Assembly: GCA_026390635.1 (NCBI GenBank)
Contig: JAPLFO010000155.1
Span: 1 to 32,595, forward strand
Direction of reading: 5' to 3'
DNA from: Ignavibacteriales bacterium
GTDB taxonomy: Bacteria > Bacteroidota > Ignavibacteria > UBA10030 > UBA8401
Length of the DNA stretch: 32,595 nucleotides
In this document: positions 2,371 through 29,708 of the stretch, piece by piece
Position numbering within the stretch: position 1 is the stretch's first letter
Layout of the letters: every line of letters starts with the position of its first letter
Program-made: the position numbers and the translations under genes
The notes under the pieces: generated by a model
Told to the model about the DNA's origin: nothing
The model's input: only the letters and a program-made list of their open reading frames with translations
Databases searched by the model: none

Positions 2371-2383
2371 TCCGACTTCCGCC

Positions 2384-2408: not shown

Positions 2409-2477
2409 ATGAAAGTGATTCGCGCTGCACAGAGAGTACCATCCCTTATTGCCACATCAATTCTTAAAGGACTTTCG

Positions 2478-5413: not shown

Positions 5414-5456
5414 TCATTGTGCCTGTCACATAAGCAATGAATCAGAAAGGGTGCGT

Positions 5457-5798: not shown

Positions 5799-5824
5799 TG
5801 GGATCACGTCGTATGAAAGAATCT

Positions 5825-5916
5825 GGCCACAGAGATCACAGAGGACACAGAGGCTGTTGTGCCATGACGATTGGTTGGCACATATGATCGAGATATTCTC
5901 TGTGGACTCTGTGGCA
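5825..5916. repeat. Nested palindromic element with CACAGAG repeats
   Basis: The left arm (5825-5843) carries GCCACAGAG followed by CACAGAG. The right arm (5898-5916) is its near-perfect reverse complement, CTCTGTGG followed by CTCTGTGGCA. A second perfect 7-bp inverted repeat (TGTGCCA at 5858-5864, TGGCACA at 5876-5882) lies inside. The whole stretch could fold into one long two-tier hairpin and fills most of the gap between kdgF and the MFS gene. It looks like a dispersed MITE-like palindrome or extragenic repeat rather than a terminator, as no T run follows. Confidence 0.6.
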
Positions 5917-5933
5917 AAAGAAGGGAATCTTAG

Positions 5934-7205: not shown

Positions 7206-7314
7206 ATCATTTGCGGATGATGCTATTGGATAAGCCTTTCAAAAGCATGTGCAGCATGGATATTGAAGAATGTTGTTCCCATCACTGAGCCATTTATCGC
7301 AGAAAGGAAATACA

Positions 7315-8070: not shown

Positions 8071-8122
8071 ACAAACCCTGACGGTCACCGGGCGAAGCCG
8101 AGGTGATCTCCACCACAAAATA

Positions 8123-9673: not shown

Positions 9674-9674
9674 A

Positions 9675-10994
9675 ATGAGACTGTGCTCCGCAATACTGCT
9701 CCTGCTTGCTGCTGTGCCGGTCTCTGCCGGACTTTGGAAGGCGGACAATGCTGATCAGATCAAGACGATCGCAAAGGAGTTGCAGCCCGGCGATACGTTG
9801 GTGCTGGCTGACGGCGAATGGAACGATGCCGTCGTCGCGATCCATGCCGAGGGGACGGAAACACAGCCCATCCTTGTTTCAGCGCAGACGCCGGGGAACG
9901 TGATATTCACCGGCAGTTCAACATTTTCCATTTCCGGTTCCTGGATCACGGTCCGGGGTATGCAGTTCACCGGCGGAGCGATCAAAGAGGGATCGGTGGT
10001 CGCTTTCCGTACGTCGTCCTCCCGGTTCGCGTCGCATTGCCGTCTGACAGAATGCTCCATCATCGACTATAACCCTGCAGACAAATATCTGGACTATAAG
10101 TGGGTCTGCCTCTACGGCAGGAACAATCGTGTGGATCATTGTACGTTCATCGGGAAGAGACATCAGGGAACACTTCTTGTGATTTGGCCGGACGGTGAAC
10201 CGAACTACCACCGGATCGATCACAATTATTTCGGACCCCGGCCGGAGCATGGAAGGAACGGCGCGGAGATCATTCGTGTGGGAACGAGCGATGTGTCCAT
10301 GAGTACGTCGCGCAGCCTTGTGGAGTATAATGTTTTTGAGAAGTGTAACGGAGAAATGGAGATCATCTCCAACAAATCCTGTGAGAATGTGTACCGCTAC
10401 AATACATTTCTTGCCTCTGCAGGGACGTTGACACTGCGGCACGGCAATCGCTGCGACGTGTACGGCAACTGGTTCTTCGGCAATCGGGCAAAGAACACAG
10501 GCGGTGTTCGCATCATCGGCGAGGATCACAAAGTATACGACAATTGGTTCCAGGACCTCAATGGCGGCGACCGTTTCGCGCCGCTGGTCGTCATGGATGG
10601 TGTGAAGGATACACCGCTCAACGGGTACTATCAGGTGAAGAATGCACTCGTCCGGTGCAATATCTTCGTGGATTGCAGTTGGGGCATCATCATCGGGGCT
10701 AGGAATACCGACTACTCCGGTTTCGTCCCGGCCGATACAATCAGGATCACGGAGAATTCCTTCTTCCGCACTCGAAGTCCGCTGACGATCATCACGAAGC
10801 CTCTGGCGGCCTTTTATGCTGCCAACACGGTGTCTGAAGGTACTGTTCCGGATGTTCCGGGATTCGCTTCGGTGTCCGATGAAGTTCCGCAGGCAACTCT
10901 TCTTCTGCAGCGGCTGCGGGATGATGGAAAGATTCCGACCGAAATACTTCCGGTGGACCGCAGCACAGTCGGTGCTTCATGGAGCAGAAAATGA
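9675..10994 (+). CDS. PL6 family alginate lyase (short, periplasmic form)
   Basis: This 439-residue protein is a signal peptide (about 1-18, ending PVSA) plus one parallel beta-helix domain of the PL6/chondroitinase B type. The calcium-binding acidic pair E227-M-E229, the catalytic base N233-K234-S and the acid-side R255 in L-R255-H-G-N-R259 are all present. The repeated N-x-F/W-x rungs (YNVFEKC, YNTFLAS, YGNWFFG, YDNWFQD) are typical of the helix. PL6 enzymes cleave alginate by beta-elimination, with exo or endo modes depending on the member. There is no T9SS domain or second toroid, so periplasmic action on oligomers is likely. ATG 9675 follows the esterase stop by one base. The stop overlaps the next PL6 gene by four bases (ATGA), so the two lyases are coupled. 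Confidence 0.92.
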   Translation: MRLCSAILLLLAAVPVSAGLWKADNADQIKTIAKELQPGDTLVLADGEWNDAVVAIHAEGTETQPILVSAQTPGNVIFTGSSTFSISGSWITVRGMQFTGGAIKEGSVVAFRTSSSRFASHCRLTECSIIDYNPADKYLDYKWVCLYGRNNRVDHCTFIGKRHQGTLLVIWPDGEPNYHRIDHNYFGPRPEHGRNGAEIIRVGTSDVSMSTSRSLVEYNVFEKCNGEMEIISNKSCENVYRYNTFLASAGTLTLRHGNRCDVYGNWFFGNRAKNTGGVRIIGEDHKVYDNWFQDLNGGDRFAPLVVMDGVKDTPLNGYYQVKNALVRCNIFVDCSWGIIIGARNTDYSGFVPADTIRITENSFFRTRSPLTIITKPLAAFYAANTVSEGTVPDVPGFASVSDEVPQATLLLQRLRDDGKIPTEILPVDRSTVGASWSRK

Positions 10995-13900
10995 ATTATC
11001 GCACTTCCATGAAGCCGTTGTTCTCGGTGATGGTCTTGTGGGTGATTGCCGGCGGGACTCTGTTTGCAGCGGCAGATTCCGTCGTCGTGCGCACATCGTT
11101 TGAAGGCAGCGATCTTCCGGCCTACAGCGTCGGCTCGGTGGCCGGACAGAATAACTGGAGCATCGCCGGCGGCGAAGGAAAGATTGTCGCCGATCCCGCC
11201 GCAGCACATGCGGGAGCCAATGGATTGAAGATGGTGACCGCATCGGCGCTGGGTGTTCTGTATACGCCGTTCAGCGGTACGGTGCAGGGACCGGGCGGCA
11301 TTCTCTATTTTGATTGCTATATCAAAATTGCTGCTTCATCGGGAAAAGAATTCACGATGAATGTGAACGATCTTTTCGGCGGCAGCCAGAAACGCGCAGC
11401 GGTAGTAGATTTCTCAGTGCCGGTCAGCGGAACCGGAAGTATTCGCATCTACAATGGCGGATCAAAAGTTGTAATTGCACCCTATGCCATCGGAACCTGG
11501 TATCGTATCAGCGGAAAGCTGAATTTCAACGATTCTATCTATCAAGTTTGTGTCAATGCCGGGACGGCGGTGACTGCACAATTTCGCGAACCCTATTATG
11601 CCAAAGGGAGCGGCTCTCGACCAGCCGGGACGAAGGAATTTCATCAGATTCTTTTCAATCTCGGAGCAGATGACAATACAGGAACAGTGGATGCTGCGGT
11701 GGATGAGTTATACGTCGGTTCCGCAATACCCCAGGGCGTAACATTCGGAGCTGTCGTCGTCAAATACAAAGTAAGCGTAATGCAGCCTGACGTCGGAACA
11801 ATCACCCTCGCGCCTTCCGGTTCTAGCTTCGATGCGGGAACGACAGTCAGGGCAACGCTGTCGCTTCCGGGCGGCTATAAAAATCTTGGATGGACCGGAG
11901 ATGTCTCCGGAACCGATACAATGGTGACGTTTCAGGTAGCGACGAATATGTCGATAGGTGCAACGGTCGGGGTCGATTCGACGCACCCTCCGAAAACATA
12001 CAGAGTAACTGTAACACAACCATCGTATGGCGCAATTACGTTATCATCGAATGGAGTTGCAGCAAATTCGTTCTATATGTATTCAAAAGTGACTGCAACG
12101 CTTGTCTTGCCTCCCGGCTATCGGAACAACGGCTGGCGCGGTGCATTGTCGGGAACCGAACTCGTGAAATCCTTCACGCTGCTCAGCGACACGACACTCA
12201 CCGCGGAAGTGCTTCCGCCGCTTGCGGGTTCACGGAAAACATTTTCGACGGCCTCGGCATTCAAGGCCGCAATGGCGCTGGCGGCAGCAGGAGACACATT
12301 GGAACTAACCAACGGCACATACGATGTCGGCACGATATCGCCCGATTCCGGTTCGATCTCAGGGACAGCAGAAAACCCGATCCTCATCCGGGCAGCGAAT
12401 CGCGGTGCGGTGGAACTCAACGGAAGCTCAGCCTTTGATTTAAGATTTTCCGCTTACATCACCATCGAAGGCTTCGTCTTTACCGGCTCGGCGTCCACCG
12501 CAGTCAGAACTGAGTGTTCGCATCATATCCGGATCACCCGGAATGTCTTTCGGATGACGGAGGCCGCATCGAATAAATGGATCCTGATCGGCGGGTACTA
12601 CCGCCAGCCGCTTCCGCTTAGTCATCACAACCGCATCGACCACAACCGGTTTGAGAACAAAACACAGCCCGGAAATTTCATCACCATCGACGGGTCACCC
12701 CAGACCATCAACAGTATCGATAATCCGTTCTGTGCGTCATCCCAAAACGACCGGATCGACCATAATTATTTCAAGAAGTCCGGTCCCCGGATCGACAATG
12801 GAATGGAATCGATCCGGGTCGGTTGGAGCAAATTGTCGCTGACGAGCGGATATACCGTTGTGGAGGAGAATCTCTTTGAAGACTGCGACGGCGATCCGGA
12901 GATCATCTCCGTCAAGTCCTGCGACGACACTATCCGGTTCAACACATTCCGGCGATCGTTGGGAACACTCTCACTGCGCCATGGGAACCGGAGCACGGCC
13001 TGCGGAAATTTCTTCTTTGGAGAAGGGAAGACAACTCAATACACCGATCCGGCCACCGGCAGCACGTCGACTATTGGAACGGGCGGCATCCGCTTCTACG
13101 GAGATGATCACCGTATCTACAACAATTACTTCGAAAACCTGACGGGCGATCGCTGGGATGCAGCCATTACCATTACAAACGGCGATCAGGATTATCCCAG
13201 CACCAGCCTGGACGGACATTTCCGTCCGCGGCGGGCCGTTGTTGCATTCAACACAATGGTGAACAACGCTCATAATATTCAGATCGGATATACGGGAAGC
13301 GGCTATGCTAAGCCGCCGCAGGATATTACGATCGCGAACAATCTTATCACCGGCTCGCAGTTTGAATTGGTGAAAATTCTGACGGCGCCAATCTCCACAG
13401 TGTTCAGCGGCAACATCATGTTTCCGGTATCGGGCGCGACGCTTGGCATGACGGCCGGTGCGGCCGAAGCGCGCGTTGTCGATCCACTTCTGGAACGACG
13501 GGATTCTCTCTGGCGTCTTTCCGGTGCAAGTCCCGCAATCGATGCCGCCGTAGGCATATATGAGTTCATCGATATCGATATGGATGGGCAGCTGAGACCT
13601 GGTCTTAAAGATGTCGGTGCGGACGAGCTTTCCGTCACTCCCAAAATCCATAGGCCGCTTCTGGCGCAGGATGTCGGCCCGGATGCGCCAGAGATGACGG
13701 TGACCACAGTCTCCGGAAGGGATCTACCGCCTGTGCCTTTGCCTGCAGTTCTCTTTCCGAATTATCCGAATCCGTTCAATCCATCGACCATGATTCATTT
13801 TGTGACCCCGTTTTCAGGCGTGGCGAGACTTGGTGTTTTTTCCCTGTTGGGTCAGGAAGTGGCAGTGATTTTCAATGGTCGCGTTGAGAGCGGACACTTA

Positions 13901-14005
13901 TACCGGGCTGTCTTTGATGCACGCGGATTAGCCAGTGGCCTTTATTTTGCACGCCTCGAATTCGGCGGCCGGCTCAACGCACAAAAAATGATTTTGGCAA
14001 AGTAG
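10991..14005 (+). CDS. Large multidomain PL6 alginate lyase with T9SS sorting domain
   Basis: A protein of about 1004 residues, in order: signal peptide (about 1-27); a concanavalin-like jelly-roll module (about 32-250), probably carbohydrate-binding; two divergent InlB-B-type repeats (about 256-330 and 335-405, each with a [F/Y]-x-V-x-V-x-Q-P start and a GW-G core); a PL6 beta-helix (about 415-885); a linker; and a T9SS type A tail (about 917-1004, NYPNPFNPST at 924-933). Catalytic K642 (SVKS) and R663 (L-R-H-G-N-R667) keep the same 21-residue spacing as in the short PL6 upstream. The acidic pair is D635-P-E637. It should act at the cell surface or outside, making oligomers for the periplasmic lyases. 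ATG 10991 overlaps the previous stop (ATGA) and has GGAG seven bases upstream, better than ATG 10979. Confidence 0.92.
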   Translation: MNYRTSMKPLFSVMVLWVIAGGTLFAAADSVVVRTSFEGSDLPAYSVGSVAGQNNWSIAGGEGKIVADPAAAHAGANGLKMVTASALGVLYTPFSGTVQGPGGILYFDCYIKIAASSGKEFTMNVNDLFGGSQKRAAVVDFSVPVSGTGSIRIYNGGSKVVIAPYAIGTWYRISGKLNFNDSIYQVCVNAGTAVTAQFREPYYAKGSGSRPAGTKEFHQILFNLGADDNTGTVDAAVDELYVGSAIPQGVTFGAVVVKYKVSVMQPDVGTITLAPSGSSFDAGTTVRATLSLPGGYKNLGWTGDVSGTDTMVTFQVATNMSIGATVGVDSTHPPKTYRVTVTQPSYGAITLSSNGVAANSFYMYSKVTATLVLPPGYRNNGWRGALSGTELVKSFTLLSDTTLTAEVLPPLAGSRKTFSTASAFKAAMALAAAGDTLELTNGTYDVGTISPDSGSISGTAENPILIRAANRGAVELNGSSAFDLRFSAYITIEGFVFTGSASTAVRTECSHHIRITRNVFRMTEAASNKWILIGGYYRQPLPLSHHNRIDHNRFENKTQPGNFITIDGSPQTINSIDNPFCASSQNDRIDHNYFKKSGPRIDNGMESIRVGWSKLSLTSGYTVVEENLFEDCDGDPEIISVKSCDDTIRFNTFRRSLGTLSLRHGNRSTACGNFFFGEGKTTQYTDPATGSTSTIGTGGIRFYGDDHRIYNNYFENLTGDRWDAAITITNGDQDYPSTSLDGHFRPRRAVVAFNTMVNNAHNIQIGYTGSGYAKPPQDITIANNLITGSQFELVKILTAPISTVFSGNIMFPVSGATLGMTAGAAEARVVDPLLERRDSLWRLSGASPAIDAAVGIYEFIDIDMDGQLRPGLKDVGADELSVTPKIHRPLLAQDVGPDAPEMTVTTVSGRDLPPVPLPAVLFPNYPNPFNPSTMIHFVTPFSGVARLGVFSLLGQEVAVIFNGRVESGHLYRAVFDARGLASGLYFARLEFGGRLNAQKMILAK

Positions 14006-14020
14006 AGCCAATACGGAGAA

Positions 14021-15220
14021 ATGTATCAAACAATGAAGAGTCCGATCCAGTTGATGCTATTATTCCTGATTGTGGTTCCCGTACTGTTTGCGCAGCGTCC
14101 GAATCTTTCACTGATCAACGTCCGTCGCCTGGAGCTGGCCCGGGACTCCTACCGTGCGGGAAGCGCCGATGTCACTCCAATCGTTGAAGCGCTCACGCGC
14201 AATGCGGACAAAACACTGCGGTTGGAACCTGTCACTGTGATGATGAAACGCCAGATTCCCCCGAGCGGCGATAAGCATGACTATATGAGTCTTGCGCCGT
14301 ACTGGTGGCCGGATCCGAAGAGCAAAGACGGCCTGCCGTATATCCGCCGTGACGGCGAGACCAATCCGGAGCGGGAAGAGTATAGTGATCGGGCAAATTT
14401 CGGAAAGATGCAGTCATCGGTCTTCACTCTTTGTCTCGCATACTACTTTACCAGTCGGGAGAAATATGCTGCCGGTGCAGATAAATGGATAACGGCCTGG
14501 TTTCTCGACCCTGCGACCAGAATGAACCCGAACATGAATTTCGCCGAAGCAGTTCGCGGCCGTAACGACGGTCGGGGTTCCGGCATTATCGAGATCCACA
14601 TGCTTTCCAATATGCTGGACGGAGTCCTGCTGCTGAAAGGCGCCCCTGGGTGGCCAGCAGAACGGCAAAAGGCGATGAGCGAATGGTGCCGGGTATATTA
14701 TGACTGGCTAACGACGAGCAAGCAGGGATTGGACGAACAGAATGCACCCAACAATCACGGTTCATGGTATGATGTCCAGCGCGTGTCGCTGGCATCGTTT
14801 CTCGGCATGAAGGACACTGTCATCCGCATCCTCAAAGAAAGCCGACACCGAAGAATTGCCTCGCAGATAGAACCCGATGGACGGCAGCCGAAGGAACTGG
14901 AGCGTACGCGTGCGATGGGTTATTCGACATTCAATCTGCAGGCGCTTACCTTCTTGGCAATAGCTGGAAGCAATAACGGGGTTGATCTCTGGAATATTTC
15001 CTTGGAAGGACGCAGCATCAAAAAGGCGATCGATTGGATGCTTCCATTCTATCTTGGAGAGAAACGATGGGAATACAAGCAGATCAGCGAGTTCAAGTCA
15101 CAGGAAGCATTTGAAGTATTGATTCGTGCCGGTGCCTATCTCGGAAAAGAATACTATGATGCGGCGATGTCGGTAGCACCGAAGGATCGCGAAAAGAACC
15201 AAACATTCTTGATGTATTAA
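14021..15220 (+). CDS. Alginate-lyase superfamily enzyme (PL5/PL38 type)
   Basis: This 399-residue protein has a signal peptide (about 1-25, ending VLFA-Q) and an (alpha/alpha) toroid of the Alginate_lyase Pfam type. It has the family block YMSLAPYWWPDP, an N244-N245-H246-G-S-W-Y motif, and E294-R295-T-R297-AMG-Y301 with FNLQAL. The Asn/His pair and the Arg/Tyr group match the catalytic positions of the superfamily. PL5 members cut mannuronan; PL38 members include endo-glucuronan lyases. The NNHGSW form looks closer to PL38 than to classical AlgL. There is no T9SS tail, so it is probably periplasmic. GGAGA stands only two or three bases before ATG 14021, and ATG 14033 is an alternative. It lies 15 bases after the large PL6 gene, probably as the last gene of that lyase operon. 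Confidence 0.87.
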   Translation: MYQTMKSPIQLMLLFLIVVPVLFAQRPNLSLINVRRLELARDSYRAGSADVTPIVEALTRNADKTLRLEPVTVMMKRQIPPSGDKHDYMSLAPYWWPDPKSKDGLPYIRRDGETNPEREEYSDRANFGKMQSSVFTLCLAYYFTSREKYAAGADKWITAWFLDPATRMNPNMNFAEAVRGRNDGRGSGIIEIHMLSNMLDGVLLLKGAPGWPAERQKAMSEWCRVYYDWLTTSKQGLDEQNAPNNHGSWYDVQRVSLASFLGMKDTVIRILKESRHRRIASQIEPDGRQPKELERTRAMGYSTFNLQALTFLAIAGSNNGVDLWNISLEGRSIKKAIDWMLPFYLGEKRWEYKQISEFKSQEAFEVLIRAGAYLGKEYYDAAMSVAPKDREKNQTFLMY

Positions 15221-15334
15221 GACGAAACAAATCTCCATGTAATTAATGCCCTCAAGGGCGAACCTGTCTTCATAAAAAGGGCATACGTCAGCGACAATTT
15301 ACCAGTATCACATCTAACAAATATCAGGGCCGAT

Positions 15335-15994
15335 ATGATTAAAGAAGATGTTCTTGAAAGAATTGCCGAAAGCGGTGTCGTCGCCGTCATTCGAATGAAG
15401 GACACGCCGCGCCTGCAGAAAGTCATCGAAGCCGTCCGCAACGGCGGCGTGAAAGCAATCGAGATTACAATGACTCTCCCGAATGCGGTCGAGGTGATAC
15501 GATCGATGGCGGCGTCGAAACCGGATGATGTTGTGCTGGGCGCGGGGACAGTAACCGATGTTGAAACGGCGCGCGCTGTAATTGACGCGGGAGCACAGTT
15601 TGTTGTGGGACCGATTCTCAATCTCGACATCATCCGGCTCTGCAAAGAAAGGGAAATTGCCTGTATGCCCGGCTGCTATACGCCGACAGAAATATTTGCC
15701 GCGTGGCAGGCGGGAGCCGATATTGTAAAAGTGTTCCCGGCCACGTCACTCGGTCCGAAATATCTAAAGGATATCGCCGGTCCATTCCCACTGATCCGCA
15801 TGATGCCCACAGGCGGCGTGACGGTGGAGAATGTCGGCGAGTGGATTGCCGCGGGTGCCGTCGCCGCAGGTATCGGAAGTGATCTCTTGGACAAGAAAGC
15901 CATCGACGAAGGCCGCTATGAAGTGTTGACGGAGCGGGCTGCGAGAATGACAGAGAACGTTCGGATCGCAAAATCGAAGTTGAGATCAGCGTAA
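15335..15994 (+). CDS. eda: KDPG/KHG aldolase
   Basis: This 219-residue class I aldolase is a complete TIM barrel of normal length. E43 in IEITMT is the catalytic base position, GAGTV starts the phosphate/substrate loop, PGCYTPTE is the usual loop, and K132 in DIVKVFPA is the Schiff-base lysine. MPTGGV and GIGSDL bind phosphate. It splits 2-keto-3-deoxy-6-phosphogluconate into pyruvate and glyceraldehyde-3-phosphate, the last step of uronate catabolism. The next gene encodes the kinase that would make its substrate. It is separated from the lyase operon by 114 bases, so it may have its own promoter. Confidence 0.95.
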   Translation: MIKEDVLERIAESGVVAVIRMKDTPRLQKVIEAVRNGGVKAIEITMTLPNAVEVIRSMAASKPDDVVLGAGTVTDVETARAVIDAGAQFVVGPILNLDIIRLCKEREIACMPGCYTPTEIFAAWQAGADIVKVFPATSLGPKYLKDIAGPFPLIRMMPTGGVTVENVGEWIAAGAVAAGIGSDLLDKKAIDEGRYEVLTERAARMTENVRIAKSKLRSA

Positions 15995-16020
15995 TCTGAT
16001 CCTGTGTAGATCCTCAGTGT

Positions 16021-16033
16021 TTTGTGGAACAAA
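16021..16033. promoter_or_regulatory. FadR/GntR-type operator candidate upstream of the kinase gene
   Basis: TTTGT-GGA-ACAAA is a perfect dyad that fits the TTGT-N3-ACAA form bound by FadR-type GntR regulators. It lies 55 bases before the kinase start, inside the 94-base gap after eda. It shares the TGT-N3-ACA core with the dyad in front of the GntR gene at 1614-1624. Regulation by that protein is inferred. Confidence 0.45.
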
Positions 16034-16088
16034 TGCCTTTTGCTTCGAGGTGTTCCGTTTGACAATTCAATTTCCTTCTGAAAGGACC

Positions 16089-17183
16089 ATGAAACCTATG
16101 CCGCTCTCAATAAAAAAAGGAGACCAAACCGCCTTCGACGTGATGTCGTTGGGCGAATGCATGATCCGTCTCAGTCCTCCGGGCCATCAGCGTATCGAAC
16201 TCACGCCTGTTTTTGAAGCATATGCCGGCGGCGGCGAGTACAATGTCACTTATGCGCTCGCCCGCTATGGTATGCGGACGTCATTCATTTCAAAACTTGT
16301 TGATAATCCCCTCGGCCAATTCATCAAGAACCACGCGCGTGCCAGTGGCATGGATGTGAGTGAAATCGTGTGGGTGCCGTTCGACGGTTCCGGCCGGACA
16401 GACCGCATCGGTTTGAATTTCACCGAAGTCGGTATCGGCGTGCGGGCCAGTGTCACGCTCTACGATCGCGGCAACACGGCTGTCTCTCATATGAAGCGAG
16501 GGGACGTGGATTGGAACCGCATCCTCAAAGAACGCGGCGTACGGTGGTTCCACACCGGAGGCATCTTCACCGCGCTGAGCGATTCCTGTGCGGAGGTCGC
16601 GCTCGAATCCATGAAGGCAGCGCACGACGCAGGAACTATTGTCAGCTACGATCTCAATTTCCGTAGCAAACTGTGGTCCAGCAAAAAGGCGATTGAGATA
16701 ACGAAGAAACTCGTTCCATACATCGACGTCCTGATCGGGAATGAAGAAGATTTCCAAAAAGTACTCGGCTTCGAGGTCGAAGGCACGGACGAAAATTTGA
16801 ACTCCCTTCCGATTGAAGGATATAAGAAGATGGTGGAGAAGGTTGTGAAGACCTATCCTCATATTCGCGCGGTCGGGACAACCCTGCGGGAAGTTGTCTC
16901 CGGCCTGGTGAATAACTGGTCGGCGATCATGTACTATGACGGCGTTTTTTATGAATCAAAAAAATATTCCGGACTTGAAATCGAAGACCGCGTGGGCGGA
17001 GGGGACGGATTTTGCTCCGGCTTTGTGTATGGACTGCTCCATGACATGACGCCGCAGGAGTGCATCGAAATGGGTGCTGCTCACGGAGCGCTTCTTCAGT
17101 CAACCCGCGGCGATACGAGCATGGTGACGATGGAAGAGATCCGGCACGTCATGGGCGGCGGCGGCGCGCGCATCAAGCGATAA
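16089..17183 (+). CDS. kdgK: 2-keto-3-deoxygluconate kinase (PfkB family)
   Basis: This is a PfkB-type sugar kinase of about 364 residues. The N-terminal motif is FDVMSLGECMIRL, AGGGEYNVTYALARYG is the sugar-binding glycine-rich stretch, and the C-terminal signature VGGGDGFCSGFVYGLL contains catalytic D306. IGNEED lies between them. KDG kinases of this family phosphorylate KDG to KDPG with ATP in the cytoplasm, and the neighbouring aldolase uses KDPG. At about 364 residues it is slightly longer than E. coli KdgK (about 309) because of inserts around 130-150 and 245-265. The frame is open from 16017, but AAAGGA (16081-16086) supports ATG 16089, or ATG 16098 with a longer gap. The substrate is inferred mainly from context. 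Confidence 0.87.
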   Translation: MKPMPLSIKKGDQTAFDVMSLGECMIRLSPPGHQRIELTPVFEAYAGGGEYNVTYALARYGMRTSFISKLVDNPLGQFIKNHARASGMDVSEIVWVPFDGSGRTDRIGLNFTEVGIGVRASVTLYDRGNTAVSHMKRGDVDWNRILKERGVRWFHTGGIFTALSDSCAEVALESMKAAHDAGTIVSYDLNFRSKLWSSKKAIEITKKLVPYIDVLIGNEEDFQKVLGFEVEGTDENLNSLPIEGYKKMVEKVVKTYPHIRAVGTTLREVVSGLVNNWSAIMYYDGVFYESKKYSGLEIEDRVGGGDGFCSGFVYGLLHDMTPQECIEMGAAHGALLQSTRGDTSMVTMEEIRHVMGGGGARIKR

Positions 17184-17225
17184 CAGGCTGCGGTATAGAT
17201 TGCACCAAGATCAGAAGGTCGCTAC

Positions 17226-18092
17226 ATGAAATCGCTTCTTTTATTTGGCTCTGTCTTTTGTTTCGCCTTTGCACTGATTGCGCAGGGTTCATCGACCTCG
17301 ATGGACCTTCCGGCAGGATGCACTGTCCATCCGGATCTTGTCTATAAAACGGCGGGTTCATGGAAAGGACTGCTCGATCTCTATCTGCCGGGAGATACAA
17401 CGAAGCCCGTTCCGCTGGTGCTCATGTTCCACGGCGGCGGATGGAACCACGGCAAGAAGGCGAATGTGCAGCGCGGTGCGTTGATATATTTGAAATATGG
17501 CTGGGCGGTTGCCAATATCGAGTACCGTCTGTTGGATGTTGCCCCTGCACCGGCCGCGGTGGAAGATGCACGTTGCGCATTGCTGTGGCTCGTCAAAAAT
17601 GCAAACAGGTTTTGTCTCGACCCGCAGCGCATTGTAACGACCGGTTCCTCCGCCGGTGGTCACCTTGCACTCATGATGGGACTGCTGCCGCCGGAAAATC
17701 GCTTCGACAAGGATTGCGAAACAGGACAGAATTACCACATCGTCGCCGTCATTAACAATTTTGGAGTGACGGATATTGTCGAGGCGTTGAAGAAAACTCA
17801 TTGGCTGGATGGCGCTCCGGATAAAGCAAGTTTGGCAGAATCATTGTCGCCGTTGACGTACATCAAAAAGGGAATTCCGCCGATCATCACTGTGCATGGA
17901 GATGAAGATCCGCTGGTGCCCTATTCACAGGCCGTGCGGCTGCATCAGAAACTCGACAGTGCGGGGGTGAAAAACTATTTCTACACAGTCCATGGCGGCA
18001 AACATGGAAAGTTCAGCAAGGAGGAGGGGACTGCATTCAAAAAGCAGGTGAAGCATTTTCTTGAGGAACTGGGAATGCCAACTGGAAAATAA
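17226..18092 (+). CDS. Secreted alpha/beta-hydrolase, esterase type (BD-FAE/lipase-like)
   Basis: This 288-residue protein has a signal peptide (about 1-20, FAFALIAQ). The esterase core has an HGGGW oxyanion-hole motif, G140-S-S142-A-G144 with nucleophile S142, HGDED with D228 as the acid, and G-G-K-H260 as the general base. The layout matches the carboxylesterases often found in polysaccharide loci that act on acetyl or feruloyl esters. AGAAGG seven bases before ATG 17226 fixes the start. It lies 42 bases after kdgK and is probably co-transcribed. It gives the locus a second esterase besides the one at 8123. Its exact ester substrate cannot be read from the sequence. It is the last plus-strand gene of the catabolic locus; the next gene converges on it. 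Confidence 0.82.
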   Translation: MKSLLLFGSVFCFAFALIAQGSSTSMDLPAGCTVHPDLVYKTAGSWKGLLDLYLPGDTTKPVPLVLMFHGGGWNHGKKANVQRGALIYLKYGWAVANIEYRLLDVAPAPAAVEDARCALLWLVKNANRFCLDPQRIVTTGSSAGGHLALMMGLLPPENRFDKDCETGQNYHIVAVINNFGVTDIVEALKKTHWLDGAPDKASLAESLSPLTYIKKGIPPIITVHGDEDPLVPYSQAVRLHQKLDSAGVKNYFYTVHGGKHGKFSKEEGTAFKKQVKHFLEELGMPTGK

Positions 18093-22210: not shown

Positions 22211-23932
22211 ATGCCCCAAGATCCTTCGAAATCAACATCAGCGAAAACAGCGGCCAAACAATGCTTCATGGCCGCTGATCGCTTCCTGAAGGATTTTCGT
22301 TTTGACGAAGCGCGTCGGGAAATCGAGAAAGCAAAACAACTCGATCCGACAAATATGTATGTGCATGCATTTCTCGATCGCATCAACTACTTTGAACAGC
22401 AGCGAAAAAAAGAAGCAAGCAGTGGCGAACCGCCGCCGAAAAAAGCTTCGCCTCCTCCACCAGCACCAAAAACTACTCCGCCTCCGAGTCCTCCGGCGCC
22501 ACAACAGAGTGCGTCGCCTCCGGCTTATGTTCCACCTGCGCCGCCTCCGAGTCAACCGGTGCCACAACAGAGCGCGCCGCATCCACCTTATGTTCCACCG
22601 GCTGCGCCGGTCTCACCACAGTATGTGCCGCCACCGTCTGCACCTCAGTATGTTCCACCGCCGCCGCAGGTACCACAGTATGTGCCGCCGCCGTCTGCAC
22701 CTCAGTATGCTCCACCGCCGCCGCAGGTACCACAGTATGTTCCACCGCCGTCTGCACCTCAGTATGCTCCATCGCCGCAGCAGGTACCACAGTATGTGCC
22801 GCAGCAATCTGCTCCTCAGTATGTGCCACAGCCGCAATATGCGCCGCCGCCGCAGGTGCAGTATGCTCCACCGCCGATGCAGCAACCGCAACATCCCCAG
22901 CAGGATCAGTACGATCCTTATGCTCCGCAGCAGCGGTATGCAGCCCCCGTCCCGTCGCAACCGACACTGACTTATGTTCCGCCGGCTCCTGAGTTGCGAA
23001 GACCGCCATCCAATGGCTCTCAGCAGTATGAGCCGACTGAAGCGGCTGCTCCGCCGGCACCGCCTCAGGCGTATATGCCGGAGCAGCAGCGGGCACCTGA
23101 ACCGGCCTCTGGTGCAACGGAATCTCAACTGGAACAAATGAAGCGGCAGATCGAACTGCTTACGCAGGCGCTGGAACAGGAGAAAGTCGCACGCGAAGAG
23201 ATTAAGAAACAGCAGATCCAGGGGGCGGTCACGCAATTTCGTCAGGCACTGGAAAAAGCATGGAGCAATGGAGCGCCGCCGGAAACGGAAGTCAATGAAT
23301 TGCATAAGCTGGCCGTCAATCTGCAGATTTCTGACGTAGTCGAGCAGACCGTTACTCGCGAAGTGAAACTCGACACCTACAGCAAGGCGGTCAAGGAAGT
23401 TATTGCAAAGCGGCAACTGTTGCGCAGTTCATCTTCAACGCTGGAGTGGTTGCGCAAGGTGTATCAGGTGACGTTGGAGGAATATCTGGAGTACGAATCG
23501 AAATTCCTGCTCGATCTTGTCGCCGACCAGTACAGGGGAACGCTCTACCAGATTTCGCATGACGATGCAGTTCTTGCCAACATAACGCCAAAATTGAAAT
23601 CATTCGGTTACGCGGTGGTCACATCAAAGTCACCGGAAGAGGCTCTTGAGAAGATCGAGAAGATAAATCCGAATCTGATTCTGTGCGATACGGATTTTGG
23701 TCCGCAGGCCTTGAGCGGTATCCGGTTCCTCCATGTCATCCGCAACAATTCCAAATTCAATACGCTTCCGTTCATACTTCTGTGTCATCAATCGGAAGTT
23801 TCCCAGCTCCAGTCTTCGGAATTGCGTGCGAATGAGTCGTATGTGCAAAAGCCCGTCAACTTCGATGAATTGACAAGCGTGATAAACAAAAAACTGGTGC
23901 AATACAGGGAATATATTGCCACATTGAGTTGA
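22211..23932 (+). CDS. TPR-like / PQY-repeat / coiled-coil protein with C-terminal receiver domain
   Basis: This 573-residue cytoplasmic protein has no signal peptide. Domains in order: an N-terminal helical pair like a TPR (about 10-60, with FDEARREIEKAKQLDP); a long Pro/Gln/Tyr-rich region (about 75-305) built on 19-residue PQYVPPPSAPQYxPPPPQV units; a coiled coil (about 310-350, QLEQMKRQIELLTQALEQE); a helical linker; and a receiver domain (about 445-573). The receiver has an acidic pair (HDDAVLAN), phosphoacceptor-position D493 after the LILC strand, and K547 in QKPV. The Ser/Thr switch position is a Cys (LLCHQS). It opens an operon of kinases and receivers and may serve as a phospho-controlled scaffold, which is inference. 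The start at 22211 has only a weak GAGAAA upstream. Confidence 0.8.
   Translation: MPQDPSKSTSAKTAAKQCFMAADRFLKDFRFDEARREIEKAKQLDPTNMYVHAFLDRINYFEQQRKKEASSGEPPPKKASPPPPAPKTTPPPSPPAPQQSASPPAYVPPAPPPSQPVPQQSAPHPPYVPPAAPVSPQYVPPPSAPQYVPPPPQVPQYVPPPSAPQYAPPPPQVPQYVPPPSAPQYAPSPQQVPQYVPQQSAPQYVPQPQYAPPPQVQYAPPPMQQPQHPQQDQYDPYAPQQRYAAPVPSQPTLTYVPPAPELRRPPSNGSQQYEPTEAAAPPAPPQAYMPEQQRAPEPASGATESQLEQMKRQIELLTQALEQEKVAREEIKKQQIQGAVTQFRQALEKAWSNGAPPETEVNELHKLAVNLQISDVVEQTVTREVKLDTYSKAVKEVIAKRQLLRSSSSTLEWLRKVYQVTLEEYLEYESKFLLDLVADQYRGTLYQISHDDAVLANITPKLKSFGYAVVTSKSPEEALEKIEKINPNLILCDTDFGPQALSGIRFLHVIRNNSKFNTLPFILLCHQSEVSQLQSSELRANESYVQKPVNFDELTSVINKKLVQYREYIATLS
22616..22843 (+). repeat. 57-bp in-frame tandem repeat in the PQY region
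   Basis: Four units of 57 bases start at 22616, 22673, 22730 and 22787, each beginning CCACAGTATGT; the last is diverged. Each encodes 19 residues (PQYVPPPSAPQY... then PPPPQV). The length is a multiple of three, so copy-number change by slippage would keep the frame. It is a coding minisatellite, not a CRISPR array, because there are no unique spacers. Confidence 0.88.
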
Positions 23933-23955
23933 AAGCGTACATAAGGGAGAACGTC

Positions 23956-24324
23956 ATGGCAAAAAAAATCCTGCTGGTGGAAGACGACGAGGACAATCGC
24001 GATCTCGTCCAATTTGTGCTGAGCCGGAGCCGTTTGGGATCGACTCTTCTGATTGCCGAGAACGGACAGCAGGCGGTGGAAATGGCGAAGGCGGAAATGC
24101 CGGATTTGATTTTGATGGATATGCAGATGCCCGTCATGGATGGTTGGACGGCCGTTCCACTCATCAAAGCCGATCCGAGCACAAAGCATATCCCCATCAT
24201 CGCCTTCACTGCTCAGGCAAAAGTGGAAGACAAGGCGCGAACGATAGAGATCGGGTGCGTCGAACACTATTCGAAACCGATGGACCCCGAAGAATTGCTG
24301 GGCCTCATCAAAAAGTACATTTGA
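23956..24324 (+). CDS. Single-domain response regulator (CheY-like)
   Basis: This 122-residue stand-alone receiver has the acidic pocket D10-D11, phosphoacceptor D55 (LILMDMQMP), switch T85 and K107 in SKP, so all catalytic positions are intact. There is no output domain. AAGGGAGA five bases before ATG 23956 fixes the start; the frame's earlier ATG at 23929 has no such site. It lies 23 bases after the scaffold-like protein and 7 bases before the hybrid kinase. The likely role is a phosphate shuttle or protein-binding output in the operon's phosphorelay. The HisKA-type kinase next door is the natural partner. Confidence 0.93.
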   Translation: MAKKILLVEDDEDNRDLVQFVLSRSRLGSTLLIAENGQQAVEMAKAEMPDLILMDMQMPVMDGWTAVPLIKADPSTKHIPIIAFTAQAKVEDKARTIEIGCVEHYSKPMDPEELLGLIKKYI

Positions 24325-24331
24325 GGGTACG

Positions 24332-27217
24332 ATGATCAAGACTCGTCTCTTTTGGAAGGTGCTCGGGAATTTCGCACTTCTGCTCATCGTTCTGTCTGCG
24401 ATGACCCTGTTGACGCTGAATATTCTTTCGCAGATAGAAAAGAATTTCAATCTTTCGGCCGGCAGCACGCAGACGCTGGACAATCTCGAGAGACTCCGCA
24501 CCTATGTGGATGAAGTACCGGCAGCGGTGGATCGATACATCTTTCGCAAAGACAAAAATGCCCAGCTGATCTACGAGAAGGGATGGAAGGACTTTGATGT
24601 CATCATTCTTGGAATGCAGCGCGAGATCGAAGATACATCTGTGGTTCGTTCGCTCAGCGACATTCGTACGCTGTTCTATGACTGGATGACGACAGTGGGT
24701 GATAAGAAGATGGTGCTGGGTGCCAGCATCTCCAACGGAAAAGACGTCTCGGATTCTTTACAGATCCTCGCACTGATCGAGGCCCGGCACGGGCATCTAC
24801 CTGCCGCCCGGACGCAGTTGCGCATTCTGTTCGAAAAATCGATGACCACCCAGCCGCTCGGCATCGCACGCGCCACATCGTTGACGAAAGAACTTGGAAC
24901 ATTCATCAGTCTGACGAACATACTCCTTGCGATATTTGCGGTTGCGCTGGGATTTGTTCTCACCCGCTCGCTGACAACGCCCATCCGTCTGCTGAAGCAG
25001 GGAACACAGAACATTATGGCGGGCACCTTCCAGCCGATCATCCTGCATCGGTCGGACGAACTCGGGCAGCTTGCAGCGGACTTCAACAAGATGTCGGTGA
25101 TGCTCGGCAACAATTACACGCGATTGAAAGCGTACTCCGAGCTTGTCACAGCGTTGAACAGCCATTCGGACATGGATGCGGTGGAAACGGAAAGCCTTCG
25201 CCTGCTGTGTCAGCATTCGCGTGCCTCCGTTGGTGCGTTGTATATTGGAAGAGAAGAGGATTCCCTGTTGCATCTTGCCGCGGGATATGCACTCAAGGAA
25301 CAGGGTGTGCCGATCAAGACGCTTGGATTCGGTGAAGGCATTCCGGGCCAATGTGCGCTGGAGCGGCGGGTCATGGAGATCTCCAATATCCCGCCGTCAT
25401 CCGGCTTCGCGATCGATACGGGATTGGTGGAAGTCCCGCCGGTGTGCATTATCGCCGTACCAATTCTCTTCAAGGAAAAACTATTGGGCGTGCTGGTGCT
25501 TGGAAGCATGCGTCCGTTCGACGAGCTGGACAAGGAGATCATCAACAATTCCGTGCCGCAGCTCGGTGTGGCAATCACAAACGCACAGAACTTTGAGGCC
25601 TCGCAAAAACTGTCACGCGAGATTGCTCTGAAAAATGACGAGTTGAACGGCAAGAACGCAGAGCTTGAAAAAGCATACCGTGTGAAATCAGATTTTCTGG
25701 CAAGCATGTCGCACGAACTACGGACCCCTTTGAATTCGGTCATCGGCTTCAGTTCGGTGCTGCTTGGGCCGAACGGTGATCCGTTGACACCCGACCAGCG
25801 TATGGGTCTCGAGAAGATTCTGAAGAACGGCCGGCATTTGCTTCAGTTGATCAACGACATCCTCGATTTCTCAAAGATCGAGTCGGGCAGAATGTCTGTG
25901 AATGTGGAAAGCGACGACGCTGTCAGTATTATTGCCAGCTCCATCACAGCCATCGAATCGCTTCTACAGGCCAAGGGGCTTGTGTTGAAGCAGAATATTG
26001 AGCCGGATCTGCCTATTCTGCAAACAGACGTTCTGAAGGTGAAACAGATTCTTGTCAATCTTTTGAGCAATGCCGCCAAGTTTACGGAGAAGGGCGAGAT
26101 TACCGTCACTGCAACAGCGAAAGGGCCAAACATTCTCATTGCTGTTAAAGACTCCGGCATCGGTATCAAGAAAGAAGACTACGCGAAGGTTTTTGAGGAA
26201 TTCCAGCAGATTGACAGTTCGAATACCCGCAAATACAAGGGAACGGGATTGGGGATGCCGATATCCCGGCGTCTTGCGCGCCTCCTTGGCGGCGAACTTA
26301 CGCTTGACAGCGAATTCGAGAAGGGGTCGACATTCACGCTGACAATTCCGGCAACGTATGTCGATCCGGGAAAAGAGAAAGAAATGCAGCTGCAGAAGCC
26401 TGCAAGTTCTATGCCGACCGGTGCGCCGGTTGCCCTTCCTCCGCCGCCCACCATAGCAACGGAGAAGCCGCGCGTGGATGGTGTGAAGGTGCTTTGCATC
26501 GACGACGATCCCGACGTTATCGAAATTCTGAAAGGATATCTCATCCCGGAGGGTTATGAAGTGACAGGCGCATCATCCGGTGATGAAGGAATCACACTTG
26601 CGGCAGAATTGCGCCCGGCGCTGATTACTCTGGACATCATGATGCCGCAAAAGGACGGCTGGCAGGTCTTGCGCGAATTGAAGCAAAACCCGGTGACGCG
26701 TGACATTCCAGTGGTTATTCATTCCATTATCGAGAACAAGCCGCTGGCGGTTTCGCTCGGTGCCGTCGATGTGATGCCGAAACCGGTCGAACCGAAGACC
26801 CTGTTGGATCTTGTATCGCGCGTGGCGGTGTCAAAAGATCAATCGGTGCTGTTTGTGGACGATAGCGTGGAATTCACCTCCGTCATCAAGCAGTTTCTCG
26901 AGAGCGAGGGTTTTGCGGTGGAAATTGCCAACAACGGGCAGCAGGCCTTGGACAAGCTGGAGAGCATAACACCGGCGGTTATCTTTCTTGATCTGATCAT
27001 GCCGGTGATGGACGGTTTTGAGTTGGCGCAGCGCTTGCGGAATGACAACCGCTGGCGCAACATCCCCGTGGTGGTTCTTTCCGGCAAGGAACTGACAGAC
27101 GAAGAATGGAAGAGGCTGAATATGTTCAACACGGAGTTTTTGAAAAAAGGAGATCTCACGCAGGCATCTTTGGCCACTACAATGCATTCGTTGCTGCATC
27201 CGGCCGGACGATCCTGA
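24332..27217 (+). CDS. Membrane hybrid histidine kinase (HAMP-GAF-HisKA-HATPase-REC-REC)
   Basis: This 961-residue protein has a transmembrane helix at about 9-30 and a periplasmic helical sensor (about 35-190). A second helix follows at about 193-215, then a HAMP linker (about 215-265), a GAF domain (about 270-420) and a coiled coil. HisKA has phosphoacceptor H461 in SMSHELRTPLN. HATPase has N-box NLLSNAAKF, G1 DSGIGI and G2 GTGLGMPIS. Two receivers have D768 (TLDIMMPQKDG) and D887 (FLDLIMPVMDG). Receiver 1 keeps its KP motif (MPKPV), whereas receiver 2 has KKG instead. The kinase should sense a periplasmic or cytoplasmic (GAF) signal and pass phosphate through its receivers to partners in the operon. 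There is no Hpt domain in the window. The signal is unknown. Confidence 0.93.
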   Translation: MIKTRLFWKVLGNFALLLIVLSAMTLLTLNILSQIEKNFNLSAGSTQTLDNLERLRTYVDEVPAAVDRYIFRKDKNAQLIYEKGWKDFDVIILGMQREIEDTSVVRSLSDIRTLFYDWMTTVGDKKMVLGASISNGKDVSDSLQILALIEARHGHLPAARTQLRILFEKSMTTQPLGIARATSLTKELGTFISLTNILLAIFAVALGFVLTRSLTTPIRLLKQGTQNIMAGTFQPIILHRSDELGQLAADFNKMSVMLGNNYTRLKAYSELVTALNSHSDMDAVETESLRLLCQHSRASVGALYIGREEDSLLHLAAGYALKEQGVPIKTLGFGEGIPGQCALERRVMEISNIPPSSGFAIDTGLVEVPPVCIIAVPILFKEKLLGVLVLGSMRPFDELDKEIINNSVPQLGVAITNAQNFEASQKLSREIALKNDELNGKNAELEKAYRVKSDFLASMSHELRTPLNSVIGFSSVLLGPNGDPLTPDQRMGLEKILKNGRHLLQLINDILDFSKIESGRMSVNVESDDAVSIIASSITAIESLLQAKGLVLKQNIEPDLPILQTDVLKVKQILVNLLSNAAKFTEKGEITVTATAKGPNILIAVKDSGIGIKKEDYAKVFEEFQQIDSSNTRKYKGTGLGMPISRRLARLLGGELTLDSEFEKGSTFTLTIPATYVDPGKEKEMQLQKPASSMPTGAPVALPPPPTIATEKPRVDGVKVLCIDDDPDVIEILKGYLIPEGYEVTGASSGDEGITLAAELRPALITLDIMMPQKDGWQVLRELKQNPVTRDIPVVIHSIIENKPLAVSLGAVDVMPKPVEPKTLLDLVSRVAVSKDQSVLFVDDSVEFTSVIKQFLESEGFAVEIANNGQQALDKLESITPAVIFLDLIMPVMDGFELAQRLRNDNRWRNIPVVVLSGKELTDEEWKRLNMFNTEFLKKGDLTQASLATTMHSLLHPAGRS

Positions 27218-27252
27218 TTACAAGTCACTTTCACGGACGATGTGAAATCATC

Positions 27253-28413
27253 ATGAAAGACACAACAGCGGAAGAACCCACAATTCTGGCGGTCGACGAT
27301 ACGGAAGACAATCTGGACCTGCTGGAATTTGTCATGAAACGGAAGCCGGTCAGGTTTCTTCGAGCAAGCAGCGGACGGCAATGCCTCTTGCTGGCACGGG
27401 AGAAGAATCCCGATGTCATCCTCTTGGACATCCAAATGCCCGAGATGGATGGATTCGAAACATTCCGGCAACTTCGGGCGAATGCAATGACCGCGAAAAT
27501 TCCCGTCGTTTTCCTGACGGCAACTCGCAAAGATGCGGACAGCATCCAGAAGGGACTGGAACTCGGCGCCGATGGCTATCTGACAAAGCCCATCGATCCC
27601 GAAGAACTTCTGGTGCGCGTGCGGATGCTGGTGCGGATTAAACGCGCCGAGATGGAACTGGAACGGACGAAGGCGGATTTCATGGCGATGCTGGTACACG
27701 ACCTCCGCAGTCCTTTGAATGGCATTCGCAGCGTTATCGACTTTCTGCGCGAGATGCGCGATCAAGGCCGCGAAATGAAGGCAGATCATCTCAATCTGCT
27801 GGACGCAGCATCCGAATCGACCAGGCGAATGCTGGGCCTGATCAATAACATTCTGGACCTTTCGAAATTTGAGGCGGGCAACATGGCGCTCGAAAAGGCT
27901 CCGGCCGCCATTCAGCCTCTGATCGAAAGTGCCTGTCGGGAGTTGGCTGTTCAGTTCAAGCAGAAAGACATTCAGCTCGCAATGACCTTCGCGCCGAACC
28001 TTCCCGATGCGGTGATTGACGGGAGCAAAGTGGGACAGGTCATGATGAATCTATTGAGCAACTCCTTCAAGTTCACCGCCAGCGGCGGCAAAGTGTCGAT
28101 TGACGTCGGGCAGTGTCTGGAGTTTTCCACGGCGGCAAATGCGGCAATTCCATCGATCGAGGTGACGGTGACGGATACCGGAGTTGGAATACCGAAGGAA
28201 GAGATACCGTTGCTGTTCGAACGCTATCGACAGATCTCCACGTCGAAAACTGCAAAACAGAAGGGAACCGGCCTCGGCCTTTCCATCTGTAAATTGATTG
28301 TGGAAGCACATGGCGGATCTATCCGCGTCGAGAGTGAGCTGGGACAATACTCCAAATTTAAATTCACTATTCCCATCGATACATCTTCTGTCACAACAGC
28401 GAGTCAACAATGA
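27253..28413 (+). CDS. Receiver-histidine kinase (REC-HisKA-HATPase), cytoplasmic
   Basis: This 386-residue soluble kinase starts with a receiver (about 8-125, D15-D16 pocket, D59 in LLDIQMPEMDG, KP in LTKPID). HisKA follows with H149 in MLVHDLRSPLN, then a HATPase domain with NLLSNSFKF, DTGVGI and GTGLGLS. The REC-first order means its kinase activity is probably set by phosphorylation from another protein, such as the hybrid kinase upstream. The frame is open from 27106, but the receiver begins only after ATG 27253, which lies 35 bases after the previous stop with a weak ribosome site. A TTTCAC/GTGAAA dyad (27229-27247) sits in that gap. The stop overlaps the next start by four bases (ATGA), indicating coupled translation. 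Confidence 0.92.
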   Translation: MKDTTAEEPTILAVDDTEDNLDLLEFVMKRKPVRFLRASSGRQCLLLAREKNPDVILLDIQMPEMDGFETFRQLRANAMTAKIPVVFLTATRKDADSIQKGLELGADGYLTKPIDPEELLVRVRMLVRIKRAEMELERTKADFMAMLVHDLRSPLNGIRSVIDFLREMRDQGREMKADHLNLLDAASESTRRMLGLINNILDLSKFEAGNMALEKAPAAIQPLIESACRELAVQFKQKDIQLAMTFAPNLPDAVIDGSKVGQVMMNLLSNSFKFTASGGKVSIDVGQCLEFSTAANAAIPSIEVTVTDTGVGIPKEEIPLLFERYRQISTSKTAKQKGTGLGLSICKLIVEAHGGSIRVESELGQYSKFKFTIPIDTSSVTTASQQ

Positions 28414-29474
28414 AAGATAAAATTCTGGTTGTAGATGATGAGGACAGTCTTCGGCTAACCCTTAAATTTCGACTTGCCGACGCCGGATTTGATGTCAGAG
28501 ACGCCGCCGATGGTGAACAGGCGATCGCCTTGCTTGAAGTCGAGTCCGCCGATATGGTTCTGCTGGATATTAATATGCCGCGCATGGACGGAATCGAAAC
28601 GCTCGGGCTGATCATACAGGCGCATCCGTCAACCGATGTCGTCATGTTGACCGGATTTGCCGATTTCTCCACCGCAATCGACTGCTTGAAGAAAGGCGCG
28701 AAGGATTATCTGGTGAAGCCGATCGAAGTGACCGAGCTCATCACGCGGGTACGATCAATCCTGCGGGCAAGAAATGCGGAGCGTTCGCTCGGCGAATTAC
28801 AGCGGCGGCACAATTCCGTCGTACTCTTCGAGATTCTTCCGGGACTCTTCTCCCTGCAGTCGTCCATTGATGGGCTCTCGCGCAGCAAAATGACGCATGA
28901 TCAGGAGTTGCTTCTGCGGCAGGCATTGTCGTCGGCTGCGCTGCTGCTCGAACACACCAGCGGCTTGGTACAATGTGCCCAGGCTGATACTATTCCAGTG
29001 GATATTGTGAAAGCCGATGTCGATTTCGGGCCGCTGATCCAATCTATTGCAGAACGATACGAAAAAGAAGCGGCATCGCGGGGTATCCAATTCCAGCAGA
29101 AAGTCGGCAAGAATCTGCCGCGGCTTGCCATTGATACCGAAAAAATCGGGTATGCATTGGACCTTCTCGTTGGCGGCGCTTTCCGTTTGGTGGAGAAGAA
29201 GAAAAAGGTTCAATTCAGTGTTTCAGTCCTTGCTGCTGCCGAAGTGTTGATGGAGTTGAGAGTCCCATTCATTTACGGTGGAGAAGAACCGGGTTCGCTT
29301 TTCCCGATTTTTGCCGAGGATGCCAATGCAGATCCGGAGAACAAAAGAAAAGATCTTGGCTTTGTAATTGCCCGGCGTATCGCGGAAGAGCACGGTGGGA
29401 AGATCTGGATCGATACATCGAAGGTTGACGAGGTGCTTGTCAGCTTTGCGCTTCCGGTAGGGGAAACGGCTTGA
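28410..29474 (+). CDS. Receiver domain fused to a degenerate histidine kinase-like module
   Basis: This 354-residue protein has an intact N-terminal receiver (about 3-120): D9-D10 pocket, D53 in LLDINMPRMDG, and K103 in VKPIEV. The C-terminal half has the length and spacing of a HisKA plus HATPase unit. However, the His-box is lost (RRHNSVVLFEIL lacks the H-E/D-x-R-x-P pattern), the N-box Asn is missing (ALDLLVGGAFRL), and the glycine-rich G1 box is not recognisable. Only the G2-like DLGFVIARRIAEEHGGKI end is clear. It may act as a phospho-gated pseudokinase that binds or regulates the preceding kinase. It overlaps that gene by four bases and is followed by a strong terminator, so it is the last gene of the operon. 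Confidence 0.83.
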   Translation: MKDKILVVDDEDSLRLTLKFRLADAGFDVRDAADGEQAIALLEVESADMVLLDINMPRMDGIETLGLIIQAHPSTDVVMLTGFADFSTAIDCLKKGAKDYLVKPIEVTELITRVRSILRARNAERSLGELQRRHNSVVLFEILPGLFSLQSSIDGLSRSKMTHDQELLLRQALSSAALLLEHTSGLVQCAQADTIPVDIVKADVDFGPLIQSIAERYEKEAASRGIQFQQKVGKNLPRLAIDTEKIGYALDLLVGGAFRLVEKKKKVQFSVSVLAAAEVLMELRVPFIYGGEEPGSLFPIFAEDANADPENKRKDLGFVIARRIAEEHGGKIWIDTSKVDEVLVSFALPVGETA

Positions 29475-29545: not shown

Positions 29546-29577
29546 GGGGACATCAGAGATGATGTCCCCCTTTTTTT
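29546..29577 (+). terminator. Strong intrinsic terminator of the signalling operon
   Basis: GGGGACATC-AGAGAT-GATGTCCCC forms a perfect 9-bp stem with a 6-nt loop. One C and then seven consecutive T follow. It stands 71 bases after the last stop codon of the signalling operon. Confidence 0.95.
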
Positions 29578-29675: not shown

Positions 29676-29708
29676 TGCCATACATGACAAAAATTGTCAT
29701 GTATGGCA
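29676..29708. promoter_or_regulatory. 33-bp perfect palindrome, candidate Rrf2 operator
   Basis: TGCCATACATGACAA and its exact reverse complement flank an AAA centre (15+3+15 bases, no mismatch). It lies 48 bases before the Rrf2-type regulator gene and upstream of cydAB. The inner TGACA-N5-TGTCA core is the likely protein-binding part. The distance fits an autoregulatory operator over the promoter; a transcript hairpin is also possible. Confidence 0.7.

Follow-up and report, generated by a model that had tools for sequence, protein, structure and literature searches.

A conserved five-gene receiver and kinase cassette with a putative pseudoreceiver scaffold in Ignavibacteria-type bacteria, and its possible link to a type IV filament machine

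Introduction

Two-component networks that contain pseudo-enzymes are already known. For example, DivL carries a tyrosine at its histidine site, and the scaffold-like part of FrzS is a long coiled coil. Within the DivK-DivL-DivJ/PleC network of Caulobacter, the pseudokinase DivL binds the phosphorylated form of DivK (PMC4211667). The pseudoreceiver of FrzS in Myxococcus functions without phosphorylation of an aspartate (PMC1974792), and in the activation of type IV pili it binds SgmX (PMC12632262). In addition, the PATAN-CheY regulators PixG, PixE and LsiR are receiver proteins thought to signal to the PilB1 extension ATPase by contact (PMC7690835). Nearly all of the pseudoreceivers studied are orphans (PMC12632262).

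Here, we analyse a stretch of 32,595 nt (the window), which is the entire contig C144 of the 3.98-Mb assembly of an Ignavibacteriales bacterium and carries a set of five co-oriented ORFs (22211-29474, all on the + strand; Table 1). No description of this gene combination was found in the literature searched, and a search on signalling clusters of Ignavibacteria returned nothing relevant. Our leading reading, to which we give slightly less than even confidence, is that the five genes form a conserved phospho-signalling hub with an output by protein contact, for which a type IV filament machine is the likeliest target. A putative pseudoreceiver sits here in one operon with its likely partners, namely two live-looking kinases, a lone receiver and a pseudokinase; a few purified proteins would therefore be enough to test how a pseudoreceiver is switched.

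The locus is comparable with the Caulobacter network in that a lone receiver (gene 2) would be served by kinases, together with a pseudokinase (gene 5) that potentially reads the phosphorylated receiver, and in one orthologue of gene 5, that of L037, the His is replaced by Tyr, as in DivL. Compared with DivL, gene 5 has an intact N-terminal receiver of its own in the place ahead of the kinase core, where no PAS sensor domain was identified by Pfam, docking is only proposed here, and no counterpart of the CtrA/CckA branch was seen. Gene 1 is similar to FrzS in the union of a pseudoreceiver with a further scaffold-like part and in a tie, here a proposed one, to type IV pilus control. However, the pseudoreceiver of gene 1 is C-terminal, the N-terminus is TPR-like, the helical region preceding the pseudoreceiver is the best conserved part, and the protein comes from a TPR-helical-REC family abundant in the order. 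The PATAN-CheY regulators are alike in contact signalling to a pilus ATPase, as proposed for the hub, while the kinases here are of HisKA type rather than CheA. A PATAN-type identity was considered for gene 1 and rejected, since Pfam lists no PATAN domain in it.

Composition and boundaries of the cassette

The initial annotation had described a five-gene operon with six receivers and no output domain. The ORFs are real, and no Hpt, cyclase or DNA-binding domain was identified by Pfam in any of the five genes. Successive genes are separated by 23, 7 and 35 nt, followed by a 4-nt overlap; that is, the single overlap had been correctly noticed, while there are three short gaps rather than two. 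A terminator-like hairpin is indeed present behind gene 5, as had been claimed.

Table 1. Features of the window discussed in the text.
Feature	Coordinates	Strand	Description
Sugar-acid/polysaccharide utilisation cluster	1648-18092		Recognised by eye
Gene 1	22211-23932	+	573 aa; TPR-like N-terminus, Pro-rich linker, coiled coil, conserved helical region, C-terminal putative pseudoreceiver
Tandem repeat	22605-22835	+	57-bp unit, 3.9 copies, 90% matches (Tandem Repeats Finder); encodes the PQYVPPPSAPQYAPPPPQV linker of gene 1
Gene 2	23956-24324	+	122 aa; single-domain CheY/DivK-type receiver (Pfam E 6e-25)
Gene 3	24332-27217	+	961 aa; membrane hybrid kinase; HAMP, GAF, HisKA, HATPase_c, REC, REC (Pfam)
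Gene 4	27253-28413	+	386 aa; cytoplasmic REC-HisKA-HATPase_c kinase (Pfam and alignment)
Gene 5	28410-29474	+	354 aa; intact receiver and degenerate kinase body; HATPase end at E 0.0096, below the cut-off (Pfam)
Terminator-like hairpin with T run	29546-29569	+	72 nt 3' of gene 5; 10-pair stem with 6 G-C pairs; GGGGACATCAGAGATGATGTCCCC, then CTTTTTTT; T-run tail given as CTTTTTTTAT
Perfect palindrome	29676-29708		TGCCATACATGACAAAAATTGTCATGTATGGCA; 15-bp arms; about 50 nt 5' of the Rrf2 gene and cydAB

Response_reg was matched once in each of genes 1 (a weak match), 2, 4 and 5 and twice in gene 3, so that the count of six receivers stands at the level of the fold. It should be noted that six receiver folds do not amount to six working receivers, because the receiver of gene 1 has neither the acidic pair nor the Thr; five working receivers are plausible. 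The cassette has no Hpt between its receivers as an Hpt-based phosphorelay has, the genome search found no free-standing Hpt in the window genome, and the sole Hpt of that genome sits in a CheA-like protein (CheA named by eye). The five genes also contain none of the CheA, CheW and MCP domains (Pfam) by which a Pil-Chp/Tax-type chemosensory locus is recognised. Among NCBIfam models, only generic receiver and kinase models were returned for the cassette, and all of the matches listed were below the cut-off.

The build of gene 1, in which conserved ends flank an elastic middle, would fit a scaffold. Its Response_reg match covers residues 451-558 (E 3.3e-9), and TPR_2 was matched below the cut-off. 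Full-length orthologues range from 384 to 806 aa with varying linker length, and the linker that joins the TPR-like start to the coiled coil ranges from Pro-rich to a long coiled coil, while the helical region immediately before the receiver varies least. The scaffold-like character assigned to this protein at first sight is supported. Judged by its residues, the receiver is a pseudoreceiver: the acidic pair (CheY D12/D13) is replaced in 20/20 orthologues, the window counted, T87 is kept in only one and is Cys in 11 of the 20, and the phosphoacceptor site (D57) is occupied by D, E, H, Q or S. In the window protein, D57 and K109 are retained and the other key receiver residues are gone. The AlphaFold model of residues 300-573 retains the receiver fold (best Z 19.3), a comparison that applies to the receiver only, since the PDB matches were filled by that domain. 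No match to gene 1 was found among phage records. The order also holds a large paralogous family with a TPR-like start, a helical region and a receiver, including L032:6909-8015 (G000:C103) and many relatives; in the two paralogues aligned (L031 and L032), D12, D13, D57 and K109 are intact and Ser is at the T87 position.

All five key residues of gene 2 (E-D, D, T, K) are present and conserved in 18/18 orthologues, which are 66-77% identical to the window protein. Gene 3 has the order TM, extracytoplasmic region, TM, HAMP, GAF, HisKA, HATPase_c, REC and REC (TM helices by eye). According to the alignments, its catalytic motifs are intact (SHELRTPL and the N, G1 and G2 boxes), as are those of gene 4 (VHDLRSPL, the N box and GTGLGL), and D-D, D and K are present in both receivers of gene 3.

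Gene 5: a conserved receiver on a decaying kinase body

The window protein of gene 5 is homologous to gene 4 along its length, and its L024 orthologue aligns with gene 4 over 366 residues, which makes the members of this family homologues of a complete REC-kinase. In the window, as the initial annotation had recognised in calling it a pseudokinase, the DHp His is replaced by Phe and the N box is lost in the orthologue alignment, as in a pseudo-histidine kinase, which is recognised by a missing phosphorylatable His or missing ATP-binding boxes. The DHp His is retained in seven orthologues (L022, L024, L025, L027, L028, L041 and L043) and is absent from the window and nine other aligned orthologues, where F, D, Y or E is found. 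These losses fall on several branches of the tree built from genes 3 and 4. In addition, the ATPase domain is gone in L035, L039, L041, L043 and L045. The receiver residues, on the other hand, are retained in all of the orthologues, that of L045 being without the domain start. On this comparison, gene 5 appears to be a decaying kinase with a conserved receiver, whose kinase part has been lost repeatedly in relatives, and the series offers natural examples of stages on the way from a kinase to a non-catalytic reader.

Gene order in relatives

By gene 1, the close relatives are MAGs registered under Ignavibacteriales, Ignavibacteriae or Bacteroidetes, and the group is termed Ignavibacteria-type here. 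The five window proteins were compared with the ORFs of the relatives' loci by BLAST. Besides the window, at least 14 loci of this type (L022, L024-L029, L034, L035, L037, L039, L041, L043 and L082) have the complete order 1-2-3-4-5, so that the expectation of a kept gene order is borne out and a chance grouping is ruled out. Three loci truncated at contig ends (L023, L038 and L042) are outside this count, and in L045, where the reading of gene 2 is broken, the case was settled by tblastn. Scattering, which the initial annotation had named as the counter-evidence, does occur in part: the set is split in G031, with genes 1-2-5 at 308 kb of contig C16 (L030) and genes 3-4 on contig C1 (L096), and one genus (g3) has genes 2-3-4 without genes 1 and 5 (L097 and L100, partly L098 and L099). 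Since genes 2-3-4 are found alone in that genus, they constitute the core, and genes 1 and 5 a second layer.

DUF6901 as a sixth gene

In relatives, a gene of about 235-270 aa directly 3' of gene 5 matches DUF6901 (PF21842; E 1.8e-82 for the copy in L024). It follows gene 5 immediately in 15 of the 16 relative loci that reach past gene 5 (L022, L024-L029, L034, L035, L037, L039, L041, L043, L045 and L082; in L035 the gene is masked by an overlapping ORF and was found by tblastn), the sole exception being L030. In the window genome, for which statements beyond contig C144 rest on sequence searches, DUF6901 is on contig C76 rather than beside the cassette. Its neighbour there, transporter-like by eye, is homologous to the gene following DUF6901 in L024 and L027, which suggests that the cassette may have moved in the window genome while the DUF6901 gene stayed behind. 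Consequently, the cassette is not the self-contained unit that had been supposed, and the genus with genes 2-3-4 alone and the split set of G031 also speak against self-containment.

Co-occurrence was evaluated in 41 relatives, taking 50% identity or more as a gene 1 orthologue. DUF6901 is present in 9/10 genomes with gene 1 and in 0/31 others (Fisher p 3e-8), or 8/8 against 0/16 when counted per genus. The tenth genome, G004, is 87% complete and its contig ends in gene 3. Gene 1 and DUF6901 are far apart in two of the nine (G000 and G031). No paper on DUF6901 was found, and the co-occurrence is the first functional lead for this family in the literature searched. DUF6901 nevertheless exists outside the hub and is not exclusive to it, because 16 genomes of other families, outside the order, carry it with no gene 3 orthologue at E 1e-100. 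The domain has a conserved Cys motif, C-x2-CPL...CPVA. The matches of its predicted model (pLDDT 79, pTM 0.76) to solved structures did not go beyond a Foldseek E of 0.08 or a Z of 2.6 and were not trusted, and its sequence has no match in the PDB. As a separate observation, DUF6901 without the cassette in several other families of the class (L085-L087, L089-L090 and L093) lies in a housekeeping-like neighbourhood with dxr-like and S-adenosylmethionine synthetase-like genes (by eye).

Filament genes beside the cassette and the proposed mechanism

Genes for T2SSE (GspE/PilB-type) and T2SSF (GspF/PilC-type) proteins, supported by Pfam in the case of L026 and by homology elsewhere, adjoin the cassette in L026, L029, L034, L035, L041, L042 and L045, and in L082 a T2SSE (GspE) gene adjoins gene 1. 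They follow DUF6901 in L026 and L034; in L035, L041, L042 and L045 they are upstream on the same strand, and in L029 upstream on the opposite strand. The adjacency of GspE and the cassette takes at least three arrangements in several lineages. The filament genes are not beside the cassette in the window or its nearest relatives, and the GspE-type ATPase of the window genome is on a short contig, C12.

Across 98 genomes of the order, 23 have both the ATPase clade and gene 3, 16 have gene 3 alone, 4 have the ATPase alone and 55 have neither (p 2e-8), so that the clade occurs in 23/39 genomes with gene 3 against 4/59 without. In eight genomes, the two genes are on one contig, 4.4-5.4 kb apart. 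Taken separately, however, neither of the two families having gene 3 shows a significant association (p 0.05 and 0.43), and thus the order-wide signal could largely be shared ancestry. Adjacency in several arrangements is stronger evidence than this co-occurrence. The purpose of the set, called unknown at the outset, can be narrowed by the neighbourhood in relatives to a possible role with a machine of the type IV filament/type II secretion family.

Between the GspE gene and a small hydrophobic protein, a further receiver protein was noticed in two loci (L035:7654-8517 and L041:8140-8943), of which the receiver alone matches Pfam; the hub might phosphorylate it. By eye, the small hydrophobic proteins next to GspE resemble pseudopilins, an identity set aside because Pfam gives it no support.

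From the parts, their motifs, the gene order and the co-occurrence, we infer the phosphotransfer routes, the docking, the filament client and the effector role of DUF6901 as follows. The cue sensed by gene 3 would come from the envelope or be a small molecule. Gene 3, gene 4 or both would phosphorylate gene 2 as well as the receivers of genes 3, 4 and 5; in its phosphorylated form, gene 2 may then dock on the DHp-like body of gene 5, like DivK~P on DivL, and/or on the gene 1 scaffold, and the layer of gene 1, gene 5 and DUF6901 would relay the state by binding. The switch would be the phosphate on genes 2 and 5, with the gene 1 pseudoreceiver serving as a docking face that itself takes no phosphate. 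As target, the type IV filament (PilB/GspE-type) machine is the likeliest, its genes being beside the cassette in several lineages. Output through protein contact, as first suggested, is still rated likeliest, there being no output domain within the five genes.

A bolder version is possible, although we consider it unlikely to hold in full: a pseudoreceiver scaffold, a decaying REC-kinase and a DUF6901 effector touching the motor would constitute an undescribed class of two-component hub that runs a type IV filament machine of Ignavibacteria, and the gene 5 proteins of living species would mark a path that starts from a kinase, passes through a phosphotransferase-like form and ends in a plain receiver on a docking body.

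Other readings of the cassette

Alternatively, the cassette may serve cell polarity or the cell cycle in a network of the PleC/DivJ-DivK-DivL type, with a scaffold that marks a site in the cell and filament genes that are mere neighbours or one client among others. The logic of the parts would be the same: two kinases and a pseudokinase accompany a lone receiver, and the linker of the scaffold is of low complexity. The hub can apparently exist without the filament ATPase, as each of the two families includes eight gene-3 genomes in which no member of the ATPase clade exceeded the cut-off used. Beside the cassette, however, no gene for polarity or the cell cycle was recognised, DUF6901 and T2SSE/T2SSF recurring there instead, and we regard this reading as rather improbable.

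It is also conceivable, at a still lower level of confidence that we would call doubtful, that the genes make up an ordinary phosphorelay with a transcription factor elsewhere, an orphan response regulator, as its output. Such a DNA-binding regulator could take the phosphate, as the initial annotation had warned: genes 3 and 4 appear to be ordinary active kinases, and an NtrC-type regulator (by eye) is located at most 10 kb upstream in L035, with homologues in L041 and L045. But a DNA-binding regulator is inside the cassette in no relative read, and genes 1, 5 and DUF6901 stay linked, none of them with an output domain known to Pfam. That gene 5 is instead a step of reverse phosphotransfer replacing the missing Hpt, as a Spo0B-like dimeric His phosphotransferase and not a contact reader, is very improbable. 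L041 and L043, which alone among the ATPase-less orthologues still carry the His, have the build of such an enzyme, but with the His lost in the window and nine others this cannot be the role of gene 5 in general, and the receiver is the conserved part.

Surroundings of the cassette in the window

Downstream of the cassette, the window contains an Rrf2 gene and cydAB (Rrf2, Cyt_bd_oxida_I and Cyt_bd_oxida_II by Pfam), and the perfect palindrome in front of them is likely an operator of the Rrf2 regulator. The utilisation cluster upstream includes, by eye, a GntR-type regulator, dehydrogenases, an MFS transporter, and lyase-like and kinase genes, and products in it bear C-terminal signals of the NYPNPFNP type (by eye).
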